This document shows positions 19,142 through 61,938 of a stretch of 64,000 bases of DNA, piece after piece. The DNA comes from a virus, in IMG/VR virus record IMGVR_UViG_3300046167_000825, positions 124,001 through 188,000 of that record. One strand, 5' to 3'. Made by a program: the position numbers and the translations under genes. Each line of letters begins with the position of its first letter. The first letter of the stretch is position 1. The notes under the pieces were generated by a model. It saw nothing but the letters and a program-made list of their open reading frames with translations, ran no database searches and was not told where the DNA came from.

Positions 19142-19176
19142 GATATACGGAACTATTAAAAAAGTGCAACCGCACT
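19142..19176 (-). promoter_or_regulatory. Class A promoter
   Basis: Read on the - strand: GTGCGG upstream, -35 TTGCAC (19169-19164), exactly 16 bp, CCG, then -10 TATATC (19147-19142). It drives the membrane protein gene at 19105. It overlaps the last bases of the gene ending at 19176. Confidence 0.85.
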
Positions 19177-28061: not shown

Positions 28062-28095
28062 CTTATACGGGTCTTCCCTAGAGATACAACCGCAG
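28062..28095 (-). promoter_or_regulatory. Class A promoter
   Basis: On the - strand: TGCGG upstream, -35 TTGTAT (28089-28084), 16 bp, CCCG, -10 TATAAG (28067-28062). It is back-to-back with the + strand class A promoter at 28124, giving a divergent pair. Confidence 0.85.
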
Positions 28096-28123: not shown

Positions 28124-28159
28124 GAGTGCGGTTGCGTTTTTTGAATAGTTCCGTATATA
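28124..28159 (+). promoter_or_regulatory. Class A promoter
   Basis: GAGTGCGG, -35 TTGCGT (28132-28137), 16 bp ending TTCCG, -10 TATATA (28154-28159). The leader then contains CAATCAACAATCAACC before the ribosome binding site of the gene at 28196. Confidence 0.88.
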
Positions 28160-36309: not shown

Positions 36310-36344
36310 CTTATACGGATCTCTTAAAAAACTGCAACCGCAAC
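36310..36344 (-). promoter_or_regulatory. Class A promoter
   Basis: On the - strand: TTGCGG upstream, -35 TTGCAG (36337-36332), 16 bp ending ATCCG, -10 TATAAG (36315-36310), then a GTAAGCAATCAACC leader. Confidence 0.88.
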
Positions 36345-37312: not shown

Positions 37313-37347
37313 CTTATACGGAACTAACTCAAAAGTGCAACCGCAAA
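37313..37347 (-). promoter_or_regulatory. Class A promoter
   Basis: On the - strand: TTTGCGG, -35 TTGCAC (37340-37335), 16 bp ending TTCCG, -10 TATAAG (37318-37313). Degenerate AGTTCxG repeats lie just upstream (37355-37390). Confidence 0.87.
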
Positions 37348-37483: not shown

Positions 37484-38740
37484 TTACGAGAGGTCAACCA
37501 ACTCACCGTCACCGATGTGGCTTGTGTTGCCTTGATCCACGACACCACCACGAATGAAGGTATCCACCAACATATCCAGTTGAGCGTGCATTGAAGCATC
37601 GACTCCACCACGAACTTGACGGAAGGAATCCTTGACAAGTGTCGTTGGGATCTTGCGACCTCTCTTGTGGTAGAAGACCACACGAGATTGCATGTGCTTC
37701 ATCCAACCACACAACTCACGGTGTCCGAACTCCATCTCAATGCTATCAGACTTGACAGCACCACGAATGGCTTTCACGACATCCCCGATGTTATCGAAGA
37801 AGTCACGCTCACCTTGTTTCATGCCCCCACAGAGCCTTGCCAACAGAGGGAACTTCGCCTTGACGATGTTGCTCTCATCTTTCCAGTCGAGGGTTGTAAA
37901 CTCCCATTTTGAGTCAAAGCGACTGAGGATTGAAGCATCCATCACTTGTGCCGAAGAATAGCGACTAGAACCGTTCCCAATGCTATTCGCAGTGGCAACG
38001 ATACGAGTACCCTCCAGAACGGGCAGAGTGCTACCATCTGGATGTTGGATACGCTTAGAAACACTGTCCAACATAAGACGAAGATGCTCGCCTTGTTGTG
38101 GGTCACAACGGTCAACATCTGTCAGAACGACAAGGTATGGAACTCGTCTGCCACTAGTGGGAGATACATAGCCCTCTGTCAGAGCCTTCGCCAAAGCACC
38201 CATTTTGTAAATCGTTCCCTCGTTCGGGTCGATCTCGTGGGAGAACAACACCTTGCTGATATCCACATCGGGATTGATTTGGATTGACATACAAGGAGTG
38301 CGAGTAACCCAAGAGTAGTTCAGCCAGAAAGCATCCTTACCCGTTCCAGCAGCACCGTAGATGAGTTGAGTTGCACCACTCTCGATATCCAAGCAAATGT
38401 CGAACACGACTTTCTTGGCATTGCCATAAGAGGGCAGTTTGTAATGTGATGGACGGACACCGTTAGCACCACAAACACCGACCTCTACATCAAGGTTGAT
38501 TTCCATATCGAAGTCGTGAAACATTGCTCTCAAGTCTTGTGGGGCGACTGGTTGAGTTCTTCTCTTTCTGCGAGCAGAAACAGCATCCATAGCCTCTTGC
38601 GAAACAATAGGGCTATTGGGGTGAGCCTCAGCATAGGCTTCAAGGCTCATTGAGTGTGCCTCTTGAATGTGATTGACAAGTGAGTGGGCTTCAAACCCAC
38701 AGATAGCACAAATCGGTAAAGCAGTAGATAAAGTAGTCAT
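37484..38740 (-). CDS. cobS-like: CobS-like (MoxR-type) AAA+ ATPase with N-terminal C2H2 finger
   Basis: 418 aa, starting at 38740 behind AGGAG. A C2H2 motif (C11, C14, H24, H29) opens the protein. A Walker A GAAGTGKD (129-136) follows, then VVLTDVDRC at the Walker B place and IVATANSIG as sensor 1. The C-terminal helical domain is consistent with the CobS/MoxR clade. CobS proteins with this finger are known in phages next to CobT-like VWA proteins, where they are not thought to make cobalamin. I infer an ATP-driven remodelling partner of the two CobT-like proteins encoded divergently at 39005 and 40528. Confidence 0.8.
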   Translation of the reverse strand: MTTLSTALPICAICGFEAHSLVNHIQEAHSMSLEAYAEAHPNSPIVSQEAMDAVSARRKRRTQPVAPQDLRAMFHDFDMEINLDVEVGVCGANGVRPSHYKLPSYGNAKKVVFDICLDIESGATQLIYGAAGTGKDAFWLNYSWVTRTPCMSIQINPDVDISKVLFSHEIDPNEGTIYKMGALAKALTEGYVSPTSGRRVPYLVVLTDVDRCDPQQGEHLRLMLDSVSKRIQHPDGSTLPVLEGTRIVATANSIGNGSSRYSSAQVMDASILSRFDSKWEFTTLDWKDESNIVKAKFPLLARLCGGMKQGERDFFDNIGDVVKAIRGAVKSDSIEMEFGHRELCGWMKHMQSRVVFYHKRGRKIPTTLVKDSFRQVRGGVDASMHAQLDMLVDTFIRGGVVDQGNTSHIGDGELVDLS

Positions 38741-38780
38741 GTTGTATTCTCCTATGAATATATTGATTGATTGACTGATT

Positions 38781-38815
38781 GTTATACGGAACTACTTAAA
38801 AAACGCAACCGCAAA
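38781..38815 (-). promoter_or_regulatory. Class A promoter of the CobS-like gene
   Basis: On the - strand: TTTGCGG, -35 TTGCGT (38808-38803), 16 bp ending TTCCG, -10 TATAAC (38786-38781). The 11-bp tandem repeats at 38826-38869 lie directly upstream. Confidence 0.88.
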
Positions 38816-38825
38816 TCACAAAATT

Positions 38826-38869
38826 AGTTCGGAGATAGTTCGGAGATAGTTCTGAAACAGTTCGGAGGG
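38826..38869. repeat. Four 11-bp tandem repeats (AGTTCGGAGAT type)
   Basis: AGTTCGGAGAT (38826-38836), the same again (38837-38847), AGTTCTGAAAC (38848-38858), AGTTCGGAGGG (38859-38869). The 11-bp period is one helical turn. They lie between the two divergent class A promoters of the CobS-like and CobT-like genes. A possible activator or repressor array. Confidence 0.75.
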
Positions 38870-38930
38870 TCGAGGTTTATGGGGATTCCTATGTGGGGGG
38901 GTTTCTGGGCTTCTCTATTATAGTCTCTTT

Positions 38931-38962
38931 GCGGTTGCATATATAAAGGAGATCCGTATAGA
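38931..38962 (+). promoter_or_regulatory. Class A promoter
   Basis: TTTGCGG, -35 TTGCAT (38935-38940), 16 bp ending ATCCG, -10 TATAGA (38957-38962), then a GTCAATCAATCA leader. It serves the HExxH CobT-like gene. Confidence 0.9.
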
Positions 38963-39004
38963 GATTAGTCAATCAATCAAATCATTATTCAAGGAGAATA
39001 AATC

Positions 39005-40339
39005 ATGGCTCAATACACTGCAAATCAATATCGTTCAGCAATCAAGTTTATCCCACAATCATTGGGGCTTCACGGTGTTCCCGTTTATGCTCAAGGTCAA
39101 ATGTTCTTTTGCACTGCGAACTTCACATTGAACAAGTTCATCGTTCAATTGTGTCAGTGGGCGAAACACCATCCAGACGGTGTCCCCTCTCAAGGTCACA
39201 TCAAGCATTGGTGTTCTGAGGCTAATCGCTCTCACTATGTCACTGGACATGGCGACCGTATCAACACGACCCCACAGAAGAAGATCGTCATTCAGACCAT
39301 CCCCGATGTCCTCACACAGAGGATGATCATGGCACTCAATGGTGGCTTGTTGCACGAATCGGCTCATCTACTCTACACTCACCAAGCCCGTTTGGACTGG
39401 AAAGTTATGTGCAAGATGGTTCTTCCGTTGTGGGGCAAGGTCAATGACTGGTCGAAAATGCAATCGGCTCTTTTGTCTTGGACTAACCTCATTGAGGACA
39501 TCAGAATTGAGCGTCTTCTTCGTCAGAATTACGCCAATACTGCTACCCAGTTGGCTGACTTGCAAGACCTCATCCTCCGTATGGAAGGACACGAGAGTGG
39601 TAAGTTCGATGCCAACGCAAAGGCTCTACAAGTCATCTGTGGTTCTTTCAGAGATATCGGATTGGGCTACAATACAGTTCTAGGTCGCAAGGCTATCGCA
39701 TCGTACAAGAAGGTCGATGAGAAGGCTTTCAACTTCGTGACCAAAGGTGCTTTACGACCTATGCTTCTTGAAAGCATGAACCCAGATGAAAGTGACGGGG
39801 TCAAAACACTAGGATTGGCTCTCAAAGTGATCTGCAATATCGCAGACCTCATTGAGGCGAATACCCCCGATCAACCACAACCAAATCAACCCCAACCTCC
39901 AAAAGAAAGCAAATGCCCTAAGTGTGGTGCTGGTGCTAAGTCACTCGTTATCAAGGCGTTGTACGAACAAGGTCACAATGTACGAGTAAAGGGCAAGGGT
40001 GTCCTATGTTGTACCAACTGTGGGCATCAAGATGTCATCGACATTGAAGAGGAGGGAGGTCAAGGGCAACCACAACCAAATCAACCTATGCCACCTCAAC
40101 CCCGTTGGGAGGGCTTCGATGGTGATGACGATGCCGACAAGCCCGAAGACGGTGAGGGTCAAGAGGGTGAACAAGGTGATGACAAAGACGGTGAGGACAA
40201 CGGCTCTGGGAAGGGTTCTAAGCCTCCATTGTTCAAGGTCGGTGACAAAGCCTACTTGAATGGTCAAGAGGTTGTCGTTGTGGTCGCTGGTACTCCCAAT
40301 GACAAGGGTGTTCAAGAGGTCGAAGTCGAAGCCGTGTGA
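39005..40339 (+). CDS. CobT-like N-terminal half: HExxH metallopeptidase-like protein
   Basis: 444 aa, behind AAGGAG. It contains HESAH (117-121) followed by NLIEDIRIER (161-170). This is the HExxH plus downstream Glu arrangement at the front of phage CobT-like proteins (NxxEDxRIE), consistent with a gluzincin-type zinc site. A zinc ribbon (CPKCGAG, then CTNCG, about 304-342) and an Asp/Gly/Glu/Pro-rich tail follow. The VWA half of CobT is missing and is encoded by the next gene, so CobT appears split. Proteolytic activity is possible but unproven. Confidence 0.7.
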   Translation: MAQYTANQYRSAIKFIPQSLGLHGVPVYAQGQMFFCTANFTLNKFIVQLCQWAKHHPDGVPSQGHIKHWCSEANRSHYVTGHGDRINTTPQKKIVIQTIPDVLTQRMIMALNGGLLHESAHLLYTHQARLDWKVMCKMVLPLWGKVNDWSKMQSALLSWTNLIEDIRIERLLRQNYANTATQLADLQDLILRMEGHESGKFDANAKALQVICGSFRDIGLGYNTVLGRKAIASYKKVDEKAFNFVTKGALRPMLLESMNPDESDGVKTLGLALKVICNIADLIEANTPDQPQPNQPQPPKESKCPKCGAGAKSLVIKALYEQGHNVRVKGKGVLCCTNCGHQDVIDIEEEGGQGQPQPNQPMPPQPRWEGFDGDDDADKPEDGEGQEGEQGDDKDGEDNGSGKGSKPPLFKVGDKAYLNGQEVVVVVAGTPNDKGVQEVEVEAV

Positions 40340-40454
40340 TCGGCTCGGCTCTCGGAGGGGGGGATTTCCCTCCCCTATCGCTTCTGGGGGTAGTCAAGAA
40401 TCTACATGACTACCCTCGATAGTTCCTATATCCACTGCTCTTTATAAGGATGAT

Positions 40455-40487
40455 TGCGGTTGCATATATAAAAGAGATCCGTATAGG
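40455..40487 (+). promoter_or_regulatory. Class A promoter
   Basis: TTGCGG, -35 TTGCAT (40460-40465), 16 bp ending ATCCG, -10 TATAGG (40482-40487), then a GTCAATCAATCA leader. Nearly the same as the promoter at 38931, so the two CobT-like halves are probably co-regulated. Confidence 0.9.
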
Positions 40488-40527
40488 GATTAGTCAATCA
40501 ATCAATATATTCATAGGAGAATAAATC

Positions 40528-41910
40528 ATGCGTATTTCAACACTGAACACGGCTCTGTCACTCACTCTCAAACAAGACCCCTCTAAAGATCAAGGCGACA
40601 ACAAAGATAGCCAAAACCCAGAGGGTTCTGACGGTCAAGGGCAAGACCAAGATCAAGACGGTGGCGACACTGGCAAGGGTGACAGTGACACTGACAAAGA
40701 CACCTCTGACGGCTCTGACAAGGGCGAGTCCGATAAGTCCGAGAAAGGCAAGTCCGAGAAAGGCAAGTCCGACAAGGGTGACGAAGAAGGCGAAACCCAA
40801 GAGGGCGAGGGCGACAAAGACGAGGGCTACGGGAATAACTCTGGTGGCAAGGGCGAACATCAAGGTGGAGGCGATGCCTCTGACGACCTCACCGATGTCG
40901 CTCAACAACTTGCCAATGCTATCCATCAAGGGCTATTCGGAACTACTGACCGTGACGATGCCCTCAATGACTCCCTTGAACAAGAAGTTCAAAAGAGTGA
41001 CCCCCTCCAGAGAGGTGAAGCGAGATACAATCCCACACAACGGATGTATCCAAAACAACTCTCTCACACTGAGAGAGATACTCTCTCAGCGAATAAGGTC
41101 TTGAAAGAGATCGCTAAAGAGAGTGGTCAAGTGAAAGTCGGTCTTCAACGCCTCATTCGGGCTATGGAGCAGACAAATGTTTCACACGGAACTCGTGATG
41201 GTCGTTTGTCATCCCGAATGTATGCAAAAACTTGGGGCGAACTGAAAGGTGGGAAATCCCCTAGTCGTCCGTACTACAAGAGATCGGAAAAGATGGATAT
41301 ATCCATCGCTTGTTCGGTGGTTGTCGATCAGTCCTCATCTATGAATGGATTGAAGAGACAAACCATCAAGGGTATGTTGGCTCTTGCCGATGCCCTCAAT
41401 AGTGTGGGTGCAGCAACACAAGTGACGGGCTACCGATACGGTGGGTATGACAACCCGAATCACTTTCATGGTGTCATGACAACACAAGTGAATGGTTCGG
41501 GTGCTTGCATTGATGTATTCCAACAGTTCGGGGAGAAGTTCACGGCTGTTAAAGGTCGATTCGCTCACCTCCGTGCCACTGGTGGAACTCCAACGGCTGA
41601 CGGTATGCAATATGCCTTAGAGGGCTTGTCAGAACGACCCGAAGCCTTTCGTGTGATGTTCGTCTTGACTGACGGTTATGCTGACGGGGGTCATCAACCC
41701 ATCATCAATCGACAAATCCGTCTAGCAATGGAGGCTGGAATACATATTGTCGGTGTCGGGCTTGGTCGTGGCACTCAAGGTGTCGTGAGTTCATATCCCG
41801 ATCACATCGTGGCAGAGAACATGGCTCAACTGCCAGAGAAACTCATTGCCAAACTCAAGGTGATACTCAAGCCCTCTGCCAACAAGAGAGGTCGTAGAGT
41901 GGCTTCCTAA
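40528..41910 (+). CDS. CobT-like C-terminal half: acidic linker plus VWA domain
   Basis: 460 aa, behind AGGAG. Residues about 18-120 are a highly charged Asp/Lys/Glu/Gly/Ser linker, then a helical region, then a VWA domain from about 255. MIDAS residues are visible as DQSSS (267-271), a Thr in ATGGTPTADGM (near 350) and an Asp in VLTDGYADGG (near 378). This acidic linker plus VWA is the C-terminal architecture of CobT. With the preceding HExxH gene it makes a full CobT in two pieces. VWA-MIDAS proteins bind partners through a metal, here probably the CobS-like ATPase or a substrate. Confidence 0.8.
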   Translation: MRISTLNTALSLTLKQDPSKDQGDNKDSQNPEGSDGQGQDQDQDGGDTGKGDSDTDKDTSDGSDKGESDKSEKGKSEKGKSDKGDEEGETQEGEGDKDEGYGNNSGGKGEHQGGGDASDDLTDVAQQLANAIHQGLFGTTDRDDALNDSLEQEVQKSDPLQRGEARYNPTQRMYPKQLSHTERDTLSANKVLKEIAKESGQVKVGLQRLIRAMEQTNVSHGTRDGRLSSRMYAKTWGELKGGKSPSRPYYKRSEKMDISIACSVVVDQSSSMNGLKRQTIKGMLALADALNSVGAATQVTGYRYGGYDNPNHFHGVMTTQVNGSGACIDVFQQFGEKFTAVKGRFAHLRATGGTPTADGMQYALEGLSERPEAFRVMFVLTDGYADGGHQPIINRQIRLAMEAGIHIVGVGLGRGTQGVVSSYPDHIVAENMAQLPEKLIAKLKVILKPSANKRGRRVAS

Positions 41911-42078
41911 GCCCTCTGCGTTCTTCTGGGGGAGTGGTGTGTTCGCACACCGTTCCCCCTCTGCACTTCTGGGGAGTGACCTAGGATTCTTTAATGTCGT
42001 GCTGCACCCTCCGTGACGGGGCAGTTGCAGTTCCCCCTAGTTCACAATCACAATCACAATCAATAAGGAGTATCACCA

Positions 42079-43557
42079 ATGGCTGATATCTTTTCTGTCG
42101 ACCTCAAAGGTCTTTCTAATCTCTTACCACAAGACGGTCTGGCGTGGATCGTCAATGAACTCGTCCAGAACGCTTGGGATCAAGAAGTTCAGACGGTTCG
42201 CCTCGAACTCGACAAGATGTCCAACACGAGAAACCGTATTCGACTCGCCATCGAGGACGATGACCCAATCGGATTCATCAACCTCGCCCACTCTTTCACT
42301 CTCTTCGCCAAGTCGCACAAGTTGGGCAACGCTGAGAAACGTGGGAGATTCAATCTCGGTGAGAAACTGGTCATCGCTTATGCGATTGCCTCTGGTGGCT
42401 CTGTCAAAATCGAATCCACCAAAGGTGGCTTCCACTTCAGCAAGGACGGTCGGACATCCATCCGTAAGAAGAGAGCCTTTGGTTCTCGTGTCGAAGTTGT
42501 GTTCAAAGCAACCCAAGCACAGTATGACGAACTGGTGGCACATGTCGGAACTCTCATCCCACCAAAAGACCACACCGAGTTCGTTGAGATAGAGCAGTCA
42601 ATCAAGACCACGCTCTCCAAACCGACTCTCATTAAGTCAGTGACGGGTGTCAATCTCCCAACCATGTTGGCTAATAGTGAAGGTGTCCTCCGTAGGACTA
42701 GAAGGAACACCACTGTCGACCTCTATGAAGTGATTGACGGTGACACACCATATCTATATGAAATGGGAATCCCAGTAGTCCCAAGCGAAACACCCTATCA
42801 CATAGATATCCAACAGAAGATACCATTGAACATGCAGCGAGACAATGTCACGCCAGCGTACTTCAAGGCAATCGCTACCACTGTCCTCAACGCAACGGCT
42901 GACCTTCTGACAGTAGAGCAGATCACTCAGAGTTGGGTCAAGGAAGCAATGGAGGACAAGGATGTCGATGCCGAATCAGTCGAGGCAGTTCTCGATACCA
43001 AGTACGGGAAGAAGAGAGTAGTCCACGACCCCAATCACCCAGAATCCTCTGCTGTCGCTATCGCTAAAGGATACACCGTTGTCTACGGTGGCAATGAATC
43101 ACGAAGCACATGGGAGAATATCAGAACGCACAGACCAGTGACCTCCGCTGGAATCAAGTTCGATACAACCAATACCGTCTCCTTCGACCCAGACGGTATA
43201 GATGTCTCCCTCCCAGAAGACCAATGGACTGACGGGATGAAAAGCCTCGCTCTATTCTGCCAGAAGACCCATAAGGAAATCTTCGGAGCGAAATTAAGAA
43301 TCCAGTTCTTCAAAGACCCTAGAGGCTACCTCGCTTGCTACTCCCGAAACTCTCTGACCTTCAACTACCGAAGCATCGGGAAGACGAAGTGCAGCAACTG
43401 GAAGACCCACCTTGAGTACTTCGTGGATTTAATCATCCACGAGTTCGCTCATCGCTATGGGAGTTCGCACTTCTCAGAAGACTACTGGCGAGGCACGACT
43501 AAGGTCGGAGCGAAGATGGCTCTGCTGCTGAGAGCAAAACCCGAACTGCTGGACTAA
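42079..43557 (+). CDS. GHKL ATPase fused to a metzincin-type zinc motif
   Basis: 492 aa, behind AAGGAG. The N-terminus has a GHKL (Hsp90/MutL-like) ATP site: NELVQNAWD (26-34), the G1-like DDDPIG (60-65) and GRFNLGEK (89-96). The C-terminus has HEFAHRYGSSH (454-464), which fits the full metzincin consensus HExxHxxGxxH. A single protein joining an ATP-dependent clamp and a zinc-protease motif is unusual. The gene follows the CobT-like genes, but its leader has no class A promoter (instead an ACAATC triplet repeat), so timing may differ. No third domain is recognised. Confidence 0.75.
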   Translation: MADIFSVDLKGLSNLLPQDGLAWIVNELVQNAWDQEVQTVRLELDKMSNTRNRIRLAIEDDDPIGFINLAHSFTLFAKSHKLGNAEKRGRFNLGEKLVIAYAIASGGSVKIESTKGGFHFSKDGRTSIRKKRAFGSRVEVVFKATQAQYDELVAHVGTLIPPKDHTEFVEIEQSIKTTLSKPTLIKSVTGVNLPTMLANSEGVLRRTRRNTTVDLYEVIDGDTPYLYEMGIPVVPSETPYHIDIQQKIPLNMQRDNVTPAYFKAIATTVLNATADLLTVEQITQSWVKEAMEDKDVDAESVEAVLDTKYGKKRVVHDPNHPESSAVAIAKGYTVVYGGNESRSTWENIRTHRPVTSAGIKFDTTNTVSFDPDGIDVSLPEDQWTDGMKSLALFCQKTHKEIFGAKLRIQFFKDPRGYLACYSRNSLTFNYRSIGKTKCSNWKTHLEYFVDLIIHEFAHRYGSSHFSEDYWRGTTKVGAKMALLLRAKPELLD

Positions 43558-44482: not shown

Positions 44483-45139
44483 ATGAAAGATGTTGAACTA
44501 TGGCATGGGGATTGTCTAAAATTGATGAAAGACATTGAAGACAATAGTGTTGATTTGTGTCTCACGGACATACCGTACGATGTTGTCAATAGATCCAGCA
44601 ATGGCTTGAGATCCCTTGATAAAGGTACGGCAGATATTTTAACCTTTGATTTGACTGACTTTTTAGACGAGGTCACAAGAATAAGCAAGACGGTCATTAT
44701 CTTTTGTGGTAAAGAGCAATTCTCTACAATTTATGCCTACTATGCCTCTAAAAAAGGGACAACTAGACCTATTGTATGGCAAAAATCAAATCCATCCCCT
44801 ATGAACGGTCAATATGTATATTTATCGGGGATTGAAATGGCAGTGTGGTTTAAGTCAAAAAAATCAAAAACATTTAATGCCCACTGTAAAAACACAGTAT
44901 TCAAGCATCCAAATGGCAGAAATAAACTACACCCAACAGAGAAAAATCATAGGTTACTAGAAGAATTAATACTTGATAACACCAATGAGGGCGATCTTGT
45001 GCTCGATCCGTGTGGTGGTAGTTTCTCGACTGGGATTGCTTGTCTAAAAATCAAGCGTAGATTTAGGGGTATAGAAAAAGACCCAATGTATTTCGAGATA
45101 GCAAAGAAACGCATTGAAGAACATCAAAAAACAATTTAA
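44483..45139 (+). CDS. DNA amino-methyltransferase, beta-type (TDIPY)
   Basis: 218 aa. Motif IV near the start is TDIPYD (28-33), then a variable part, HPTEKNHRLLE (about 150-160), and the AdoMet motif DPCGGSFSTG (about 175-184). The order fits beta-class N6-adenine or N4-cytosine methyltransferases. The Ile in DIPY replaces the usual Pro, and DPCGGS replaces DPFxGS. The class includes CcrM (GANTC), but the specificity cannot be told here. The leader TAAGGGGTATTGAAA is repeated before the next gene. No restriction partner. Confidence 0.8.
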   Translation: MKDVELWHGDCLKLMKDIEDNSVDLCLTDIPYDVVNRSSNGLRSLDKGTADILTFDLTDFLDEVTRISKTVIIFCGKEQFSTIYAYYASKKGTTRPIVWQKSNPSPMNGQYVYLSGIEMAVWFKSKKSKTFNAHCKNTVFKHPNGRNKLHPTEKNHRLLEELILDNTNEGDLVLDPCGGSFSTGIACLKIKRRFRGIEKDPMYFEIAKKRIEEHQKTI

Positions 45140-45794: not shown

Positions 45795-46160
45795 ATGAAA
45801 TGGACAATAACGGGAAGATATCAATCTGGATCGAAGAACATTATATCGGGCAACATGGGTCGGTGGTCAGTACAATCCGACACGGCTTTCAGTATTGAGG
45901 TATCTCGGTTCTCTGAGGTATTCCATCAACAGAAATACCCCATGATGCCTATACCTTCTGGTCGTGGTACAGACACAGTGGGTTATCGTATGTCGAAAGA
46001 CAAGACTGGCATCGTGATGGATCAAGTTCATCATCATTCCACGAAGCCCGTCAAGATGATTTTCCGTAGAGCAATCCACGAGTTGAAGATCAACGGTGCA
46101 GCACCTTCAAGAGAGATGTTGGAGAAAACCGTGAAGTACCTAGAACGTAAGTTCAAATGA
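45795..46160 (+). CDS. Unknown protein (121 aa)
   Basis: ATG 45795 behind AGGAG. Beta-rich start (MKWTITGRYQSGSKNII), then a His/Lys-rich middle (MDQVHHHSTKPVKM) and a helical end (EMLEKTVKYLERKFK). No family recognised. The stop overlaps the next start (ATGA), so translation is coupled. Confidence 0.6.
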   Translation: MKWTITGRYQSGSKNIISGNMGRWSVQSDTAFSIEVSRFSEVFHQQKYPMMPIPSGRGTDTVGYRMSKDKTGIVMDQVHHHSTKPVKMIFRRAIHELKINGAAPSREMLEKTVKYLERKFK

Positions 46161-46957
46161 AGAAATTAGCGAAGGCTATGGTTATCCCCGTTCGTCAGAG
46201 AACGCAATACACTTGCGTTCCTTGTTCTTTGTCTATGTGCTTGAAGGCATTGGGTATGGAGTGGATGACGGAGGACATCGTCAATGACGTGATGGGTGCT
46301 AGACCGATGAAGGGTGCTACTTGGGAAGCCGTCATCAATGCCGCCCAGCATTTCGGTAAGCGTGCAACTCTCACTGCTCCTTGTACAATCGAGCAAATGA
46401 AGGAATGGACTGACCAAGGGTTACCGATAATGATTGCTTGGAATCCAGAGGGTCGAGAGTGGAGTCACGCTTCCACTGTGTTCCATGTTTGTGAGGAATA
46501 TGTTTGGGTGGCTGACCCGAACATCCCCGACCCCAATGAAGTGGTTAGGAAAGTGCCTCACAAAGATTTTTATTCCAAGTGGTACGAGAAGCACACGAAC
46601 TATCTAGTTCGGAGACCCGCTGTTGTGATATCCCACGAGATATCTGAATCTGGCATGCAAGTGCCGTATCCCAATATGAGGATGGCGAAAACGGCTGGAA
46701 GTGATTACATGTCCAAGCAGAACATTCGAGATTCTTTGCGTATGTGCCAAGAGTTAGTTCTGTGGGTTGACGGTGAGAACATGGAGGACTGGGTGGAGGA
46801 CAAGTTGTCGGTCATTCGTGCAGCACTCTCAGATGTCCATCGTTTCTACACCAATGGTAAGTGGGATATCGGGAAAGAGAAGATCACTCTTTGGCGAGAA
46901 GCCAGCAGTGTCGGGAGAGTTTCAGATCGTTATCAAGCACGAGTTGAGGACAGTTGA
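46157..46957 (+). CDS. C39-like cysteine peptidase
   Basis: 266 aa, coupled to the previous gene. Near the N-terminus is QYTCVPCSLSMCL (17-29), with Cys20 as the likely nucleophile and a preceding Gln. A His (104 or 110, in EWSHASTVFH) and Asp120 (WVADPN) complete a papain-like triad in the order of Peptidase_C39 and related enzymes. There is no ABC transporter or leader-peptide gene nearby, so it is a stand-alone peptidase. I infer that it may process virion or host proteins. The C-terminal 110 residues are unrelated and of unknown function. Confidence 0.75.
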   Translation: MKKLAKAMVIPVRQRTQYTCVPCSLSMCLKALGMEWMTEDIVNDVMGARPMKGATWEAVINAAQHFGKRATLTAPCTIEQMKEWTDQGLPIMIAWNPEGREWSHASTVFHVCEEYVWVADPNIPDPNEVVRKVPHKDFYSKWYEKHTNYLVRRPAVVISHEISESGMQVPYPNMRMAKTAGSDYMSKQNIRDSLRMCQELVLWVDGENMEDWVEDKLSVIRAALSDVHRFYTNGKWDIGKEKITLWREASSVGRVSDRYQARVEDS

Positions 46958-47257: not shown

Positions 47258-48796
47258 ATGTCGAAAGAGATATATTTTGGGGAAGACTTCCGAACTCAAA
47301 TACTGAAGGGTGCTGACATATTTGCGAACACCGTGACCAAGACAATGGGGCCATTTAGTGGCACAGTCATGATGAATCGAATGGGGGGTTTGCTCCAAAC
47401 GAAAGATGGTGTGACGGTCGCCCGTGAGATCAATCTGAAGAACCCCGTAGCGAATATGGGTTGTCAAGTGTTGAAGGAGGCTTGTATCAAGGTCAATGAC
47501 GAGGCTGGTGATGGCACGACCACCACTGCTTGTTTGACCAACGCCATTTTGAGAGAGGGGCATAAGATGATCACGGCTGGGTTTGACCCCATGACTCTCC
47601 AAAGGGAACTCCGTCAAGCGAGTGATAAAGTTATCAAGACCTTGTGGGATAATGCCTTCCCCGTTGAGGAGGAATCCGAACTTCATTCAGTTGCAATGAT
47701 TTCTTGTAACGGTGACCGAGAGGTAGCCGATGTCTTAACTGAGGCTTGTCTTGCTGTCGGTAAAGATGGGACAGTGGTTATCGAAGAAGGGAAGGGCATT
47801 GGTATCGAGATGGATTTCAAGGAGGGCTTTGAGTTATCTTGTGGGGCAGTGAGTCGTCATTTTATGGACAACGCCCTTGAGAAGAAGTTGATTTCCCCTT
47901 TGGTTGCGATTGTTCCGAAAGTGATTACATCCATGAAGGATGTCCATTCGATGCTTGAAGAATCTTCCCAGTTCCCCCAGAATGAGTTGTTGTTAATTTG
48001 TTATGGGTTGGAAGGGGAAGCCTTGAAGTTTATGGCGACCAATCATGTGAAGGGTGTTTGTACATCAATGCCCATCAATATCGCTGGGGTATCTCTGAGG
48101 AGAGCCGAGTACATGAAGGACTTGGCGGCTCTTTGTGGTTGTGAAGTTTTAGAGGTGGATCAGTATGACATCACGAAGTTCAATACGGACTGGTTTGGGT
48201 CTTGCTTGGAGGTTCTTGTCCAAGAGAAGAAAACCATCTTCTCGGCTTTCGATGAAGCCGAAACCTCCATCGAAAGGAGAGTCAACGAACTCCAAACAGA
48301 TATGGCGAGTTCGATTTCAGATTACGACCGAGATGACATCACAAAAAGAATATCCAAACTGAAGGGTGGTTTCTGTTTGGTTTCAGTTGGTGGTCACACC
48401 GAACTGGCTATGAAAGAGAAACGTGCTCGGATTGAGGATGCACTTGGTGCTGTTCAGAGTGCTTTGAAAACTGGGATAGTCGCTGGTGGTGGGGCTTCTT
48501 ATCTTTGGGCATCTCAAGTTCTGAGTGACGATGGTGGTGAAGGTATTCTTAAACGGGCTTTAAGGAAACCAATGGAAACGATAGTGGGCAATGCTCGGCA
48601 GAACGGTGACTTCGCTGTGGAGATTCTGCTCCGTGATGGTGAACATGCTTGGCACGGGTGGGATGTCCGTAAGAAAAAGGTGATTGATCTTTATAAGACA
48701 AAGATTATTGACCCTCTCCTCGTGGCAGAGAAAGCCGTTGAGAGTTCGGTTTCTGTTGCTGGATTGATGATTACTGCTGAGGCTGGTATCGTTTGA
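47258..48796 (+). CDS. groEL: GroEL-like chaperonin (phage type)
   Basis: 512 aa, behind AGGAG. Group I chaperonin signatures are all in place: TMGP (29-32), TKDGVT (48-53), GDGTTT (84-89), then TGIVAGGGAS in the equatorial domain and the terminal AGLMITAE. It is shorter than bacterial GroEL (about 548 aa) and lacks the GGM-rich tail. No GroES gene is visible. Phage chaperonins of this kind are known in some giant phages such as EL and act without a co-chaperonin. It should fold phage proteins during late infection. Confidence 0.92.
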   Translation: MSKEIYFGEDFRTQILKGADIFANTVTKTMGPFSGTVMMNRMGGLLQTKDGVTVAREINLKNPVANMGCQVLKEACIKVNDEAGDGTTTTACLTNAILREGHKMITAGFDPMTLQRELRQASDKVIKTLWDNAFPVEEESELHSVAMISCNGDREVADVLTEACLAVGKDGTVVIEEGKGIGIEMDFKEGFELSCGAVSRHFMDNALEKKLISPLVAIVPKVITSMKDVHSMLEESSQFPQNELLLICYGLEGEALKFMATNHVKGVCTSMPINIAGVSLRRAEYMKDLAALCGCEVLEVDQYDITKFNTDWFGSCLEVLVQEKKTIFSAFDEAETSIERRVNELQTDMASSISDYDRDDITKRISKLKGGFCLVSVGGHTELAMKEKRARIEDALGAVQSALKTGIVAGGGASYLWASQVLSDDGGEGILKRALRKPMETIVGNARQNGDFAVEILLRDGEHAWHGWDVRKKKVIDLYKTKIIDPLLVAEKAVESSVSVAGLMITAEAGIV

Positions 48797-53907: not shown

Positions 53908-56034
53908 ATGAAAACTTTTGAGTTATATGGTGATGTGTATCCAGAGGACAGCAAGTACTCTCGTTTGATGGCTCAGTACATAATGACACCGAACTACGAT
54001 TCCGACTCAAAAAAAGAGTGGGAACTGTATAGGGATTTCGCAGTCAAAAAACGAATGGGCGACAACGAGATGAAAGCGTTCTTGGTCGCCAAAGATTCTA
54101 GCCATCACAATATGATTCTCGGAAGACCTCCTAGAGATTCTCGTGACTTAGAACAAGTGTATTCTCGCCAGTTCGGAAAGAGTGCTTCTTCACGGGAAGA
54201 CGAAAAGGAACTGACGGAAATCTTTCGTTTGTTGCAGAGAAGGTTCGGTCAAGCGAGGCGTTGGCATGAGTCTGGTTTTGAGGATCAGTATTTCCACATT
54301 GACAACGGCATAATGTTCTTCGCATATACCACGGGGCTTCGTGGTGAAGATGCCGACAACTCTGATTTGGAAGGTGGAATCCGTAGAGATAACAAAGACG
54401 ATGTCCAACAGTTCTTGGAGAGAAAAGGGTACGAGTTTATCCTAGAATGTGCCAACGCATATTGCGACACTTTAATGTTGACCTTGAAAGGGAAAGAGTG
54501 GATGAAGAACAATCGACCACGATACGCCAAACAAGCAGAGGATGAGTGTTCGGGGATGACCAACACAATGGATTATGTTCATTGCCGAGCAAAGAAGATG
54601 GAAAAAGAAAATGGCACATCAGCCGACAAAGCGTTTCCGACAGCGTGGTCTATTGCTTGTAAATACAAGCGTGACCAGTTGAGCGATGCCGATGAACATT
54701 GTCAGAAAAAACCTAATGAATATTTCAAATCTAAAAAAGCAAATGGAGAACCCATGAAAAAGAAAGCGGCTAGAGTGCCTCAAATCCTAATTGAAACGAT
54801 AATGCCAGCCTTGTACCAATGGAGGGTTGACAAACTTTCTCGTGATCTTCGTAGTGATCTCAAAGAACTCGCCATAGGTGACATGATGGAAGAACTTGTT
54901 GTGAAAGATCACTATGATGAGTTGTTTGCACTCAAAGATAACTCAGAGGCTATGGCTTGGATTGGAGTAGATTCTAAGACCTACAAGAAAGCCATCATGC
55001 AAACTTTGATTGCTGCTCGTCAGATGAAGTTGGGTTCTTCCGAACTAGAACTTATGGCTGGACACACCCCAGAGTCCTTCAAGAAAATGATGAAAGACAA
55101 TCCCGAACTAGCCGAAGAATGGGAGAAGCAAATCAAAGAGAACGAAGGTGTTGTCGAGAAGAAATCTTCTGAAGCAGATATCGTTGCCAATTTGGTTGAG
55201 AAATGGGCTGGTTGTGAGAAACTCCCTAACGAGAAGATGCAGCAAATGTGCGAGGATAAGAAAGAAGAATCCAAGAAGGAAGACAAAGAGGATGGGGAAG
55301 ACAAGAAAGACAAGAAAGCCCATGACAAAACAGCCCGTCTGATGAAGCGACAGATCAAGATTCTTGAGACCTATCTTCGCACCCAAACTTCTATCCCTAT
55401 GTTTTTTGAGGCTCTTCCTCCGAAAATCCAACAAGCATTACAGCGAGTCAAGTACCAAGAAACTCTTGAGATGGATGTTGAGAGATGGTTGTCTGATTAC
55501 CGATTGGAGCAACAAATAAATCAAAACCGTTGGGCATCTAATGGCTCTACGAAGGAGAACCCCATGAACAAAGAAGCAAAAACTGCTTTGAGAACCCTTA
55601 CTGCTAGTTGGGGACTCACAGCCGATGAAACCTACGAGATGTTAGCCGAAGACGAACTAGGGGAGTACCTTGCCGAAATGGAAGCCGAAATGTGGGCTGA
55701 AGAAATGGAAGCGGGTGCATCAAAGAACCCAGCGAACGCTGGTTTCAAAAAGTATCAAATACAGAAGAAGCCCTCTGAGCCTTATTACCGAGAGAAATGG
55801 TGGAAGCCCAACACTTCTAACGAAGACAAAGGTGGGAACGGTGCTGGTGGTACTGCCAACTTCAATCGCAACTACCACGAGTATGGTGAGAAGGCTAATG
55901 TGAGCGAGAAGGAGTACCAAAAGTCCTATTACCAAAAACGCTTTGTGGAAAACAAGCCCATCAAGCGTAAGACTTGCCCTAAGTTTCATGGGAGAAAGGG
56001 GCCTTGTGATGAATCCGTAAGTAAGGCAAAGTAA
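53908..56034 (+). CDS. Large multi-part protein with internal start sites (708 aa)
   Basis: Begins at ATG 53908 with a weak site (GAGAA). Within the frame, ATG at codons 283 (54754) and 553 (55564) each have a GGAG five to six bases upstream and begin similar segments (MKKKAAR, MNKEAKTALR), so shorter products of about 426 and 156 aa are plausible. The first part contains a Cys-rich segment near residues 210-265, including DKAFPTAWSIACKYK, a helix-turn pattern seen in phage structural or head-associated proteins. The C-terminus is charged. Likely virion or scaffolding; not firmly assigned. Confidence 0.65.
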   Translation: MKTFELYGDVYPEDSKYSRLMAQYIMTPNYDSDSKKEWELYRDFAVKKRMGDNEMKAFLVAKDSSHHNMILGRPPRDSRDLEQVYSRQFGKSASSREDEKELTEIFRLLQRRFGQARRWHESGFEDQYFHIDNGIMFFAYTTGLRGEDADNSDLEGGIRRDNKDDVQQFLERKGYEFILECANAYCDTLMLTLKGKEWMKNNRPRYAKQAEDECSGMTNTMDYVHCRAKKMEKENGTSADKAFPTAWSIACKYKRDQLSDADEHCQKKPNEYFKSKKANGEPMKKKAARVPQILIETIMPALYQWRVDKLSRDLRSDLKELAIGDMMEELVVKDHYDELFALKDNSEAMAWIGVDSKTYKKAIMQTLIAARQMKLGSSELELMAGHTPESFKKMMKDNPELAEEWEKQIKENEGVVEKKSSEADIVANLVEKWAGCEKLPNEKMQQMCEDKKEESKKEDKEDGEDKKDKKAHDKTARLMKRQIKILETYLRTQTSIPMFFEALPPKIQQALQRVKYQETLEMDVERWLSDYRLEQQINQNRWASNGSTKENPMNKEAKTALRTLTASWGLTADETYEMLAEDELGEYLAEMEAEMWAEEMEAGASKNPANAGFKKYQIQKKPSEPYYREKWWKPNTSNEDKGGNGAGGTANFNRNYHEYGEKANVSEKEYQKSYYQKRFVENKPIKRKTCPKFHGRKGPCDESVSKAK
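54754..56034 (+). other. Possible internal translation product 1 (in-frame start)
   Basis: GGAG at 54745-54748 is five bases from ATG 54754 inside the 708-codon frame. An N-terminally shortened protein would begin MKKKAARVPQ. Confidence 0.4.
55564..56034 (+). other. Possible internal translation product 2 (in-frame start)
   Basis: AAGGAG ending at 55557 is six bases from ATG 55564 inside the same frame. A 156-aa product would begin MNKEAKTALR. Confidence 0.4.
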
Positions 56035-56669
56035 TGAAGCGAGTTCGTCTTACACAAGTATGGCAAAAAGATATCACTGCTAGTTCGGGTCTTTATGGCT
56101 CGACTAAAGCAGTCGATAACTCTGTGCAAGCCAGTATCCGAAAGATACAACGCAAAGCCTCGAAGGTGGCTAAGGCTCTTTATAAGAGAGACCCCAAGTC
56201 ATCTGAGTTCCTTGCTATGCACGCCAAGAAAAGCAAATCGGCTTCTGCTCAGATTCTTGTTAATGCCATCAAGGAACTTGCTCCCAAGTTCGCAACCGAG
56301 ATGAACAAACAAGCCTCTTGGGGGATGTACGGATATCCTAAAAAGACAGTCACTCGTTCGTTGGGTGCTTGTGCTGAGATGAAGGATTTCGCTGGCTCTG
56401 TGGCTAGTGACCTCCATCGTAGGAAGCATGACAAGTATGATGCTTTGTTGTCCTACTTGAAATCCCATAAGAAGGAAACGAAGTGTCCTTGTACTTCAGC
56501 CCTTCTGAACTATTACCCTTCAAAAGAAATGCGTTTCGCTTCTGAAGAAGAACCCACTCTCCGTGAGTCTTTGATTCGATTGGCAAATGAAAAACCCCAT
56601 CTCCGAACTCATCTGAGTTCATTGATAGGGGAAGCACCGAACTGGCTTTATTGGTCAGACTGGGATTAA
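56034..56669 (+). CDS. Unknown protein with C-terminal LIRLA-type motif (211 aa)
   Basis: The start overlaps the previous stop (TAATG). Mostly helical and basic (ASIRKIQRKASKVAKALYKRD near 31-50). Near the C-terminus, LRESLIRLANEKPHLRTHL plus SSLI is a weaker copy of the LIRLAH motif seen in two other proteins of this window. The shared motif and the coupling to the 708-aa gene suggest a common particle or assembly role. Confidence 0.65.
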   Translation: MKRVRLTQVWQKDITASSGLYGSTKAVDNSVQASIRKIQRKASKVAKALYKRDPKSSEFLAMHAKKSKSASAQILVNAIKELAPKFATEMNKQASWGMYGYPKKTVTRSLGACAEMKDFAGSVASDLHRRKHDKYDALLSYLKSHKKETKCPCTSALLNYYPSKEMRFASEEEPTLRESLIRLANEKPHLRTHLSSLIGEAPNWLYWSDWD

Positions 56670-61905: not shown

Positions 61906-61938
61906 GGTATACGGGTCTATTCTAAAAACACAACCGCA
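61906..61938 (-). promoter_or_regulatory. Class A promoter
   Basis: On the - strand: CTGCGG, -35 TTGTGT (61933-61928), 16 bp ending CCCG, -10 TATACC (61911-61906), then CACAATCAATAAC. Confidence 0.85.

Follow-up and report, generated by a model that had tools for sequence, protein, structure and literature searches.

A phage protein family joining a GHKL ATPase to a predicted zinc protease, encoded beside a split CobS/CobT-like pair in a jumbo phage

This analysis concerns four adjacent genes, P0001 to P0004, in a 64,000-nucleotide stretch of viral DNA, called the window here and spanning bases 124001-188000 of the 289,014-bp IMG/VR virus record IMGVR_UViG_3300046167_000825 (positions below are those of the window). 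P0004 belongs to a separate, widespread, and so far undescribed phage protein family in which a GHKL ATPase and an HExxH protease domain share one chain. An earlier reading of the sequence, the original prediction, had recognized that combination, which we confirm, and had proposed that all four products make up one complete ATP-driven machine. The reading we favor instead, with moderate confidence, is that the stretch holds a CobS/CobT-like pair, its CobT split in two, next to a functionally independent ATP-gated clamp protease, P0004. ORF calling on the window found the four long open reading frames where they had been placed, and genes for a tail sheath, a DNA polymerase, and a clamp loader, all outside the four-gene stretch, identify the source as a jumbo myovirus.

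Results

P0004 (42079-43557, plus strand) encodes 492 amino acids, which the sequence, an alignment, and an AlphaFold2 model divide into a GHKL/Hsp90-like ATPase and a candidate minigluzincin domain at the C terminus. Single-sequence scans of IMG/VR with P0001 to P0004 returned nothing, and the relatives of P0004 came from an alignment query, which placed the family in 89 viral contigs. Members also occur in 45 genome contigs, mostly metagenome-assembled genomes; several of these have phage-like neighbors such as ThyX, RecA-like, and dTMP kinase genes, and no gene was seen recurring beside the P0004 relative in the cellular contigs. Among annotated phage records, such a GHKL-protease was found in LR745208 alone (36% over 99%), and no cultured relative carrying P0004 was present in the collections searched. 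The family had no family match in PHROGs or Pfam and no mention in the literature searched.

Conservation was counted over an alignment of 57 diverse members. The features that mark a GHKL ATPase, namely the Glu and Asn of the N-box, the D-x-G box, the Gly-rich lid, and a Lys, are present in all 57, and residues E27, N31, D34, D60, G65, G89, G94, K96, and R254 are invariant. The N-box reads ELVQNAWD in P0004 (42157-42180, plus strand), its L28 being likewise found in 57 of 57. R254 lies in the transducer loop, QKIPLNMQRDNV (42814-42849, plus strand), whose pattern QKIPLNxxRDNV we take to resemble the catalytic loop of the Hsp90 middle domain. The model (pLDDT 90.6) has Hsp90, topo VI-B, MORC2, and MutL as its closest PDB folds, with a Foldseek E-value of 5.5e-10 to Hsp90, and both Pfam and NCBIfam, the latter with sub-threshold matches only, point to a sacsin-type ATPase. 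Like Hsp90/HtpG, sacsin, MORC, and MutL, P0004 has a GHKL nucleotide site and a transducer with an invariant Arg; unlike them, it carries the zinc protease at its C terminus in place of dimerization or DNA domains.

RIIA proteins recur among the viral fold matches of the model, including KVP40 RIIA and several other rIIA proteins, and rIIA in jumbo phages consists of a GHKL domain with a variable C terminus (PMC7824862). P0004 resembles phage rIIA in its N-terminal GHKL domain and its occurrence in a tailed phage, and it could be an rIIA-type protein acting against host exclusion or prophage defense. We consider this distinctly unlikely: P0004 has no rIIA PHROG match at E<=0.1, it and KVP40 RIIA are only modestly similar over their full length (TM 0.39/0.29), and the C-terminal zinc protease is conserved, its near-invariant active site indicating that this part of the protein does not vary freely.

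The protease domain covers about residues 385 to 492 (43231-43554, plus strand) as delimited by the model and fold search, and holds the zinc motif HEFAHRYGSSH (43438-43470, plus strand), in which H454, E455, H458, and H464 occur in 56, 56, 57, and 56 of the 57 members, respectively. The original prediction had named this a metzincin motif, an assignment that did not survive. The Gly of HExxHxxGxxH is present in only 5 of 57 relatives; in the models there is no Met-turn and the third His runs straight into the last helix, and no metzincin appears among the 50 fold matches listed. A weak match on the metzincin side, to myroilysin (0.06-0.08), spans the HExxH helix. Modeled alone (pLDDT 97.6), the domain finds its best fold matches in jannalysin, selecase, and Wss1 (TM 0.60), and also matches 5xbv and 6mdx (Wss1 and a protein-cross-link-repair protease). 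Among the members, weak Pfam matches were to WLM (10 members), YgjP (4), and SprT (3); one or two members matched metzincin families. Sequence and fold both point to the minigluzincins (Wss1/WLM/YgjP/SprT-like), an assignment made at the level of fold and with weak scores; P0004 is thereby a predicted zinc-dependent protease. In common with Wss1/WLM, SprT/SPRTN, YgjP, and jannalysin/selecase, P0004 has an HExxH, a third His about five residues on, and then a helix with an aromatic residue; it differs from them in its fusion to a GHKL ATPase and in low sequence similarity.

Two variants were seen among the relatives. One, in L068 (9923-11479; contig G025), has lost the HExxH and kept the GHKL domain; elsewhere on its contig are CobS-like and CobT-like genes, two of each. 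In L113 (5029-6369, minus strand) and L025 (7489-8868, plus strand), second and divergent GHKL-HExxH proteins stand beside P0004 relatives, which suggests a paralogous subfamily.

The fold matches also raise the possibility of a Wss1/SPRTN-like protease, whose GHKL domain would clamp DNA in the manner of MORC or MutL and whose minigluzincin would clear proteins stuck on phage DNA. Topo VI-B, MORC2, and MutL are among the matches of the full-length model, Wss1 and the cross-link-repair protease are among those of the protease domain, and in Pfam that domain matches WLM more often than any other family. No DNA-binding element was identified in P0004, however, its best full-length fold match is Hsp90, its transducer loop is Hsp90-like, and the NCBIfam and Pfam matches are to the sacsin type. 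On this evidence, such an enzyme is unlikely.

The original proposal, that the four products form a single ATP-driven remodeling and proteolysis complex, is weakened by how the genes are distributed. The four-gene order was found in no relative examined, and the genes are separated in related phages, an outcome that the original prediction had itself named as counting against it. The 35 long contigs that carry a P0004 relative include 2 with a CobT-like gene and 33 without, and a strong CobS match occurs in a single one and is missing from 34; in that one contig, the genes and the P0004 relative are over 80 kb apart. Conversely, the annotated phages with CobS/CobT lack P0004. The nearest genomes tell the same story. 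At a threshold of E<=1e-10, 73 and 86 of the 301 predicted proteins of this genome have matches in contig G005 (L014) and in phage LR745208, respectively, 66 of them in both, and the three belong to one jumbo-phage clade. P0004 is present in all three, CobT in two, and CobS in one; in LR745208, a 485-kb phage, there is a P0004 relative and neither CobS nor CobT was found. Since P0004 occurs in all three, it belongs to the shared gene set of the clade, with CobS and CobT being accessory.

Several points weigh against separating P0004 from its neighbors, or against parts of that reading. The four genes adjoin in the window, P0003 and P0004 being 168 bp apart on the same strand, and in G005, too, no more than about 1.3 kb separates the CobT-like gene from the GHKL gene; the adjacency is therefore older than this phage. 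Contigs scored as lacking CobS or CobT may be incomplete. The degenerate Walker motifs of P0001, described below, come from one sequence; the GHKL scores of P0004 in Pfam are below the curated cut-off (HATPase_c, 2.6e-4), and the protease domain reaches only weak Foldseek E-values (0.037 at best). Taking both sides together, we regard a functional link between CobT and P0004 in the lineage of G005 and this phage as unlikely, and a single complex of all four products as quite improbable.

P0001 (37484-38740, minus strand; 418 amino acids) is a CobS/MoxR-like AAA+ protein, and this part of the original prediction is borne out by matches to AAA_5 (3.9e-7, Pfam) and phrog_249 (8e-15, PHROG). Like phage CobS proteins, it has a CxxC...H...H zinc-finger-like segment at the N terminus. 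When P0001 was aligned with five other phage CobS proteins, in all of which Walker A reads GxxGxGK[ST] and a DE pair is present, it showed GAAGTGKD at Walker A (residues 129-136; 38333-38356, minus strand), with Asp in place of Ser/Thr, and LTDVDR at Walker B (residues 206-211; 38108-38125, minus strand), where the catalytic Glu is missing. P0001 retains the sensor-1 Asn, an SRF arginine, and a sensor-2-like GHREL motif. From these residues, P0001 likely binds nucleotide poorly, or binds it without hydrolysis, which undercuts the earlier count of three ATPase or VWA remodeling proteins.

P0002 and P0003 are the two halves of a CobT-like protein. P0002 (39005-40339, plus strand; 444 amino acids) is the N-terminal half, with a gluzincin-like HExxH...NxxED and an acidic tail; its HESAH motif is at residues 117-121 (39353-39367, plus strand), and NLIEDIRIE, the likely third-ligand helix, is at residues 161-169 (39485-39511, plus strand). 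P0003 (40528-41910, plus strand; 460 amino acids) is the C-terminal half, with an acidic linker and a vWA domain (VWA, 1.6e-6, Pfam) whose MIDAS motif is intact. The HESAH and NxxEDxRIE motifs of P0002 and the HExxHxxGxxH pattern of P0004, which reads HEFAHRYGSSH, had been noted correctly. One PHROG profile, the 729-position phrog_1576, spans both, with P0002 matching its positions 47-128 and P0003 its positions 302-727 (9.6e-27), and an unsplit CobT-like homolog in G005 aligns with both proteins; the gene is therefore truly split, as had been suggested. Neither an assembly error nor a frameshift accounts for the split, since P0003 is equipped with a start codon, a ribosome-binding site, and a promoter-like element of its own. 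A scan of IMG/VR with an alignment of P0003 and L014 recovered L014 alone, the search patterns having fallen in the acidic linker. P0002 also has a Cys4 zinc-ribbon-like insert (39914-40024), which is absent from the other phage CobT-like proteins compared.

CobT and CobS homologs adjoin in five annotated phages: RHEph10 and V1VFA-S (Rhizobium), Nican01 (Pseudomonas), CRP-810 (Roseobacter), and Cyrano (Escherichia). Among seven phage CobT-like proteins aligned, six have the HExxH, which is lost in Nican01, and an NxxE helix follows, which indicates a gluzincin-like domain. A pair of a MoxR AAA+ protein and a vWA protein with an N-terminal metallopeptidase has been described in group 2.2 jumbo phages (Iyer et al. 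2021, PMC7824862), with a proposed role as a virion-assembly chaperone that also processes structural proteins by peptidolysis (PMC7824862). The original prediction had also called such pairs known in phages, though with no established role there. Judged by sequence, P0001 and P0002/P0003 are homologs of that pair, sharing with it a CobS/MoxR-type AAA+ protein, a vWA domain, and an N-terminal-type metallopeptidase in a large phage. What is new is that the CobT-like protein, with its vWA and peptidase parts, is divided between two separately promoted genes, and that the AAA+ protein no longer has the Ser/Thr of Walker A or the Glu of Walker B; the AAA+ gene is also divergent, and the Cys4 insert is a further difference.

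The names CobS and CobT come from homology and are so used in the annotation of several phages, and P0001 to P0003 resemble the cobaltochelatase subunits in their AAA_5 and vWA domains, EDxRIE-type motif, and acidic linker. A part in cobalamin metabolism is nonetheless extremely improbable. CobN (PF02514) was unmatched in the 289-kb record, in a search that matched 5 of 14 controls, the record being possibly incomplete and a host CobN possible. P0002 and P0003 do not match the Pfam models CobT and CobT_C, which the CobT proteins of RHEph10, CRP-810, and Cyrano do match. Given these two results, cobaltochelatase activity is not supported; the Walker motifs of P0001 are degenerate, and the HExxH conserved in most of the phage CobT-like proteins compared is a further departure from the cobaltochelatase.

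A promoter-like element of fixed length, GCGGTTGY-N15-CCGTATA (30 bp), precedes P0001, P0002, P0003, and many other genes. The site of P0001 is GCGGTTGC-N15-CCGTATA (38783-38812, minus strand); those of P0002 (38931-38960, plus strand) and P0003 (40456-40485, plus strand) are nearly identical to each other, which makes the split one of two separately promoted genes. Scans for the motif in the window and the whole record found no such element upstream of P0004, so that a single complex would lack a promoter common to P0004 and the other three. Three of the four genes do have the same promoter class, as originally noted, and yet it does not mark a module: with one mismatch allowed, the window has 15 sites where 0 would be expected, and there are 19 exact sites across the record, so the element is genome-wide. 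Other sites in the window include 19144-19173, 28064-28093, 36312-36341, 37315-37344, and 61908-61937 on the minus strand and 28128-28157 on the plus strand, and at several genes the element is accompanied by a conserved leader, AGTCAATCAATCAA...AGGAGAATA. The repeat array that the genes were said to face exists, and consists of an 11-bp direct repeat (TAGTTCGGAGA) present three times (38825-38867) in the interval that separates the divergent P0001 and P0002 promoters.

The surroundings of P0004 include a C39-like cysteine peptidase gene (46157-46957, plus strand) and a phage GroEL chaperonin gene (47258-48796, plus strand). Both accompany P0004 in all three clade phages, unlike CobS/CobT, as does a homolog of the gene at 56034-56669. 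The GroEL and C39-like genes lie near each other and are kept with P0004 in LR745208 and G005, forming a chaperone-protease neighborhood of the clade. Just downstream of P0004 is an N6/N4-type DNA methyltransferase gene (44483-45139). Near the P0004 relative of LR745208, two open reading frames in L002 (15216-15926 and 16019-17455, both minus strand) look TnpB/IS605-OrfB-like by eye. A PADLOC scan gave no match and thus no known defense system.

Discussion

From gene structure, homology, domain type, conservation, and synteny, we infer how the two units might act. P0001 would probably be a poor or nonhydrolyzing nucleotide-binding scaffold for its vWA and peptidase partners, P0003 and P0002, and the three together would most likely remodel or process phage proteins during assembly, along the lines proposed for other jumbo phages, with a motor that looks degenerate. 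In P0004, the GHKL domain would bind ATP and act as a clamp like that of Hsp90, MutL, or MORC, the transducer Arg R254 sensing the ATP. A dimer would then close around a client, maybe a DNA-bound protein, and place it against the Wss1-like zinc domain, which would cut it while held; the client could be either a folding protein, as for Hsp90, or a DNA-bound one, as for Wss1 or MORC. We propose tentatively, with slightly less than even confidence, that P0004 founds a widespread family in jumbo phages, in which a single chain serves as an ATP-gated clamp protease and cuts the clients it holds in the course of infection.

Recognizing P0004 as separate from the CobS/CobT-like pair keeps follow-up experiments from being aimed at the wrong complex. 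P0004 puts an Hsp90-type clamp and a zinc protease into one chain of 490 residues, with active sites intact in dozens of distant large phages; as a model of how a GHKL protein might gate proteolysis with ATP, it is both compact and testable. It could be a general tool of jumbo phages for host takeover or DNA maintenance.

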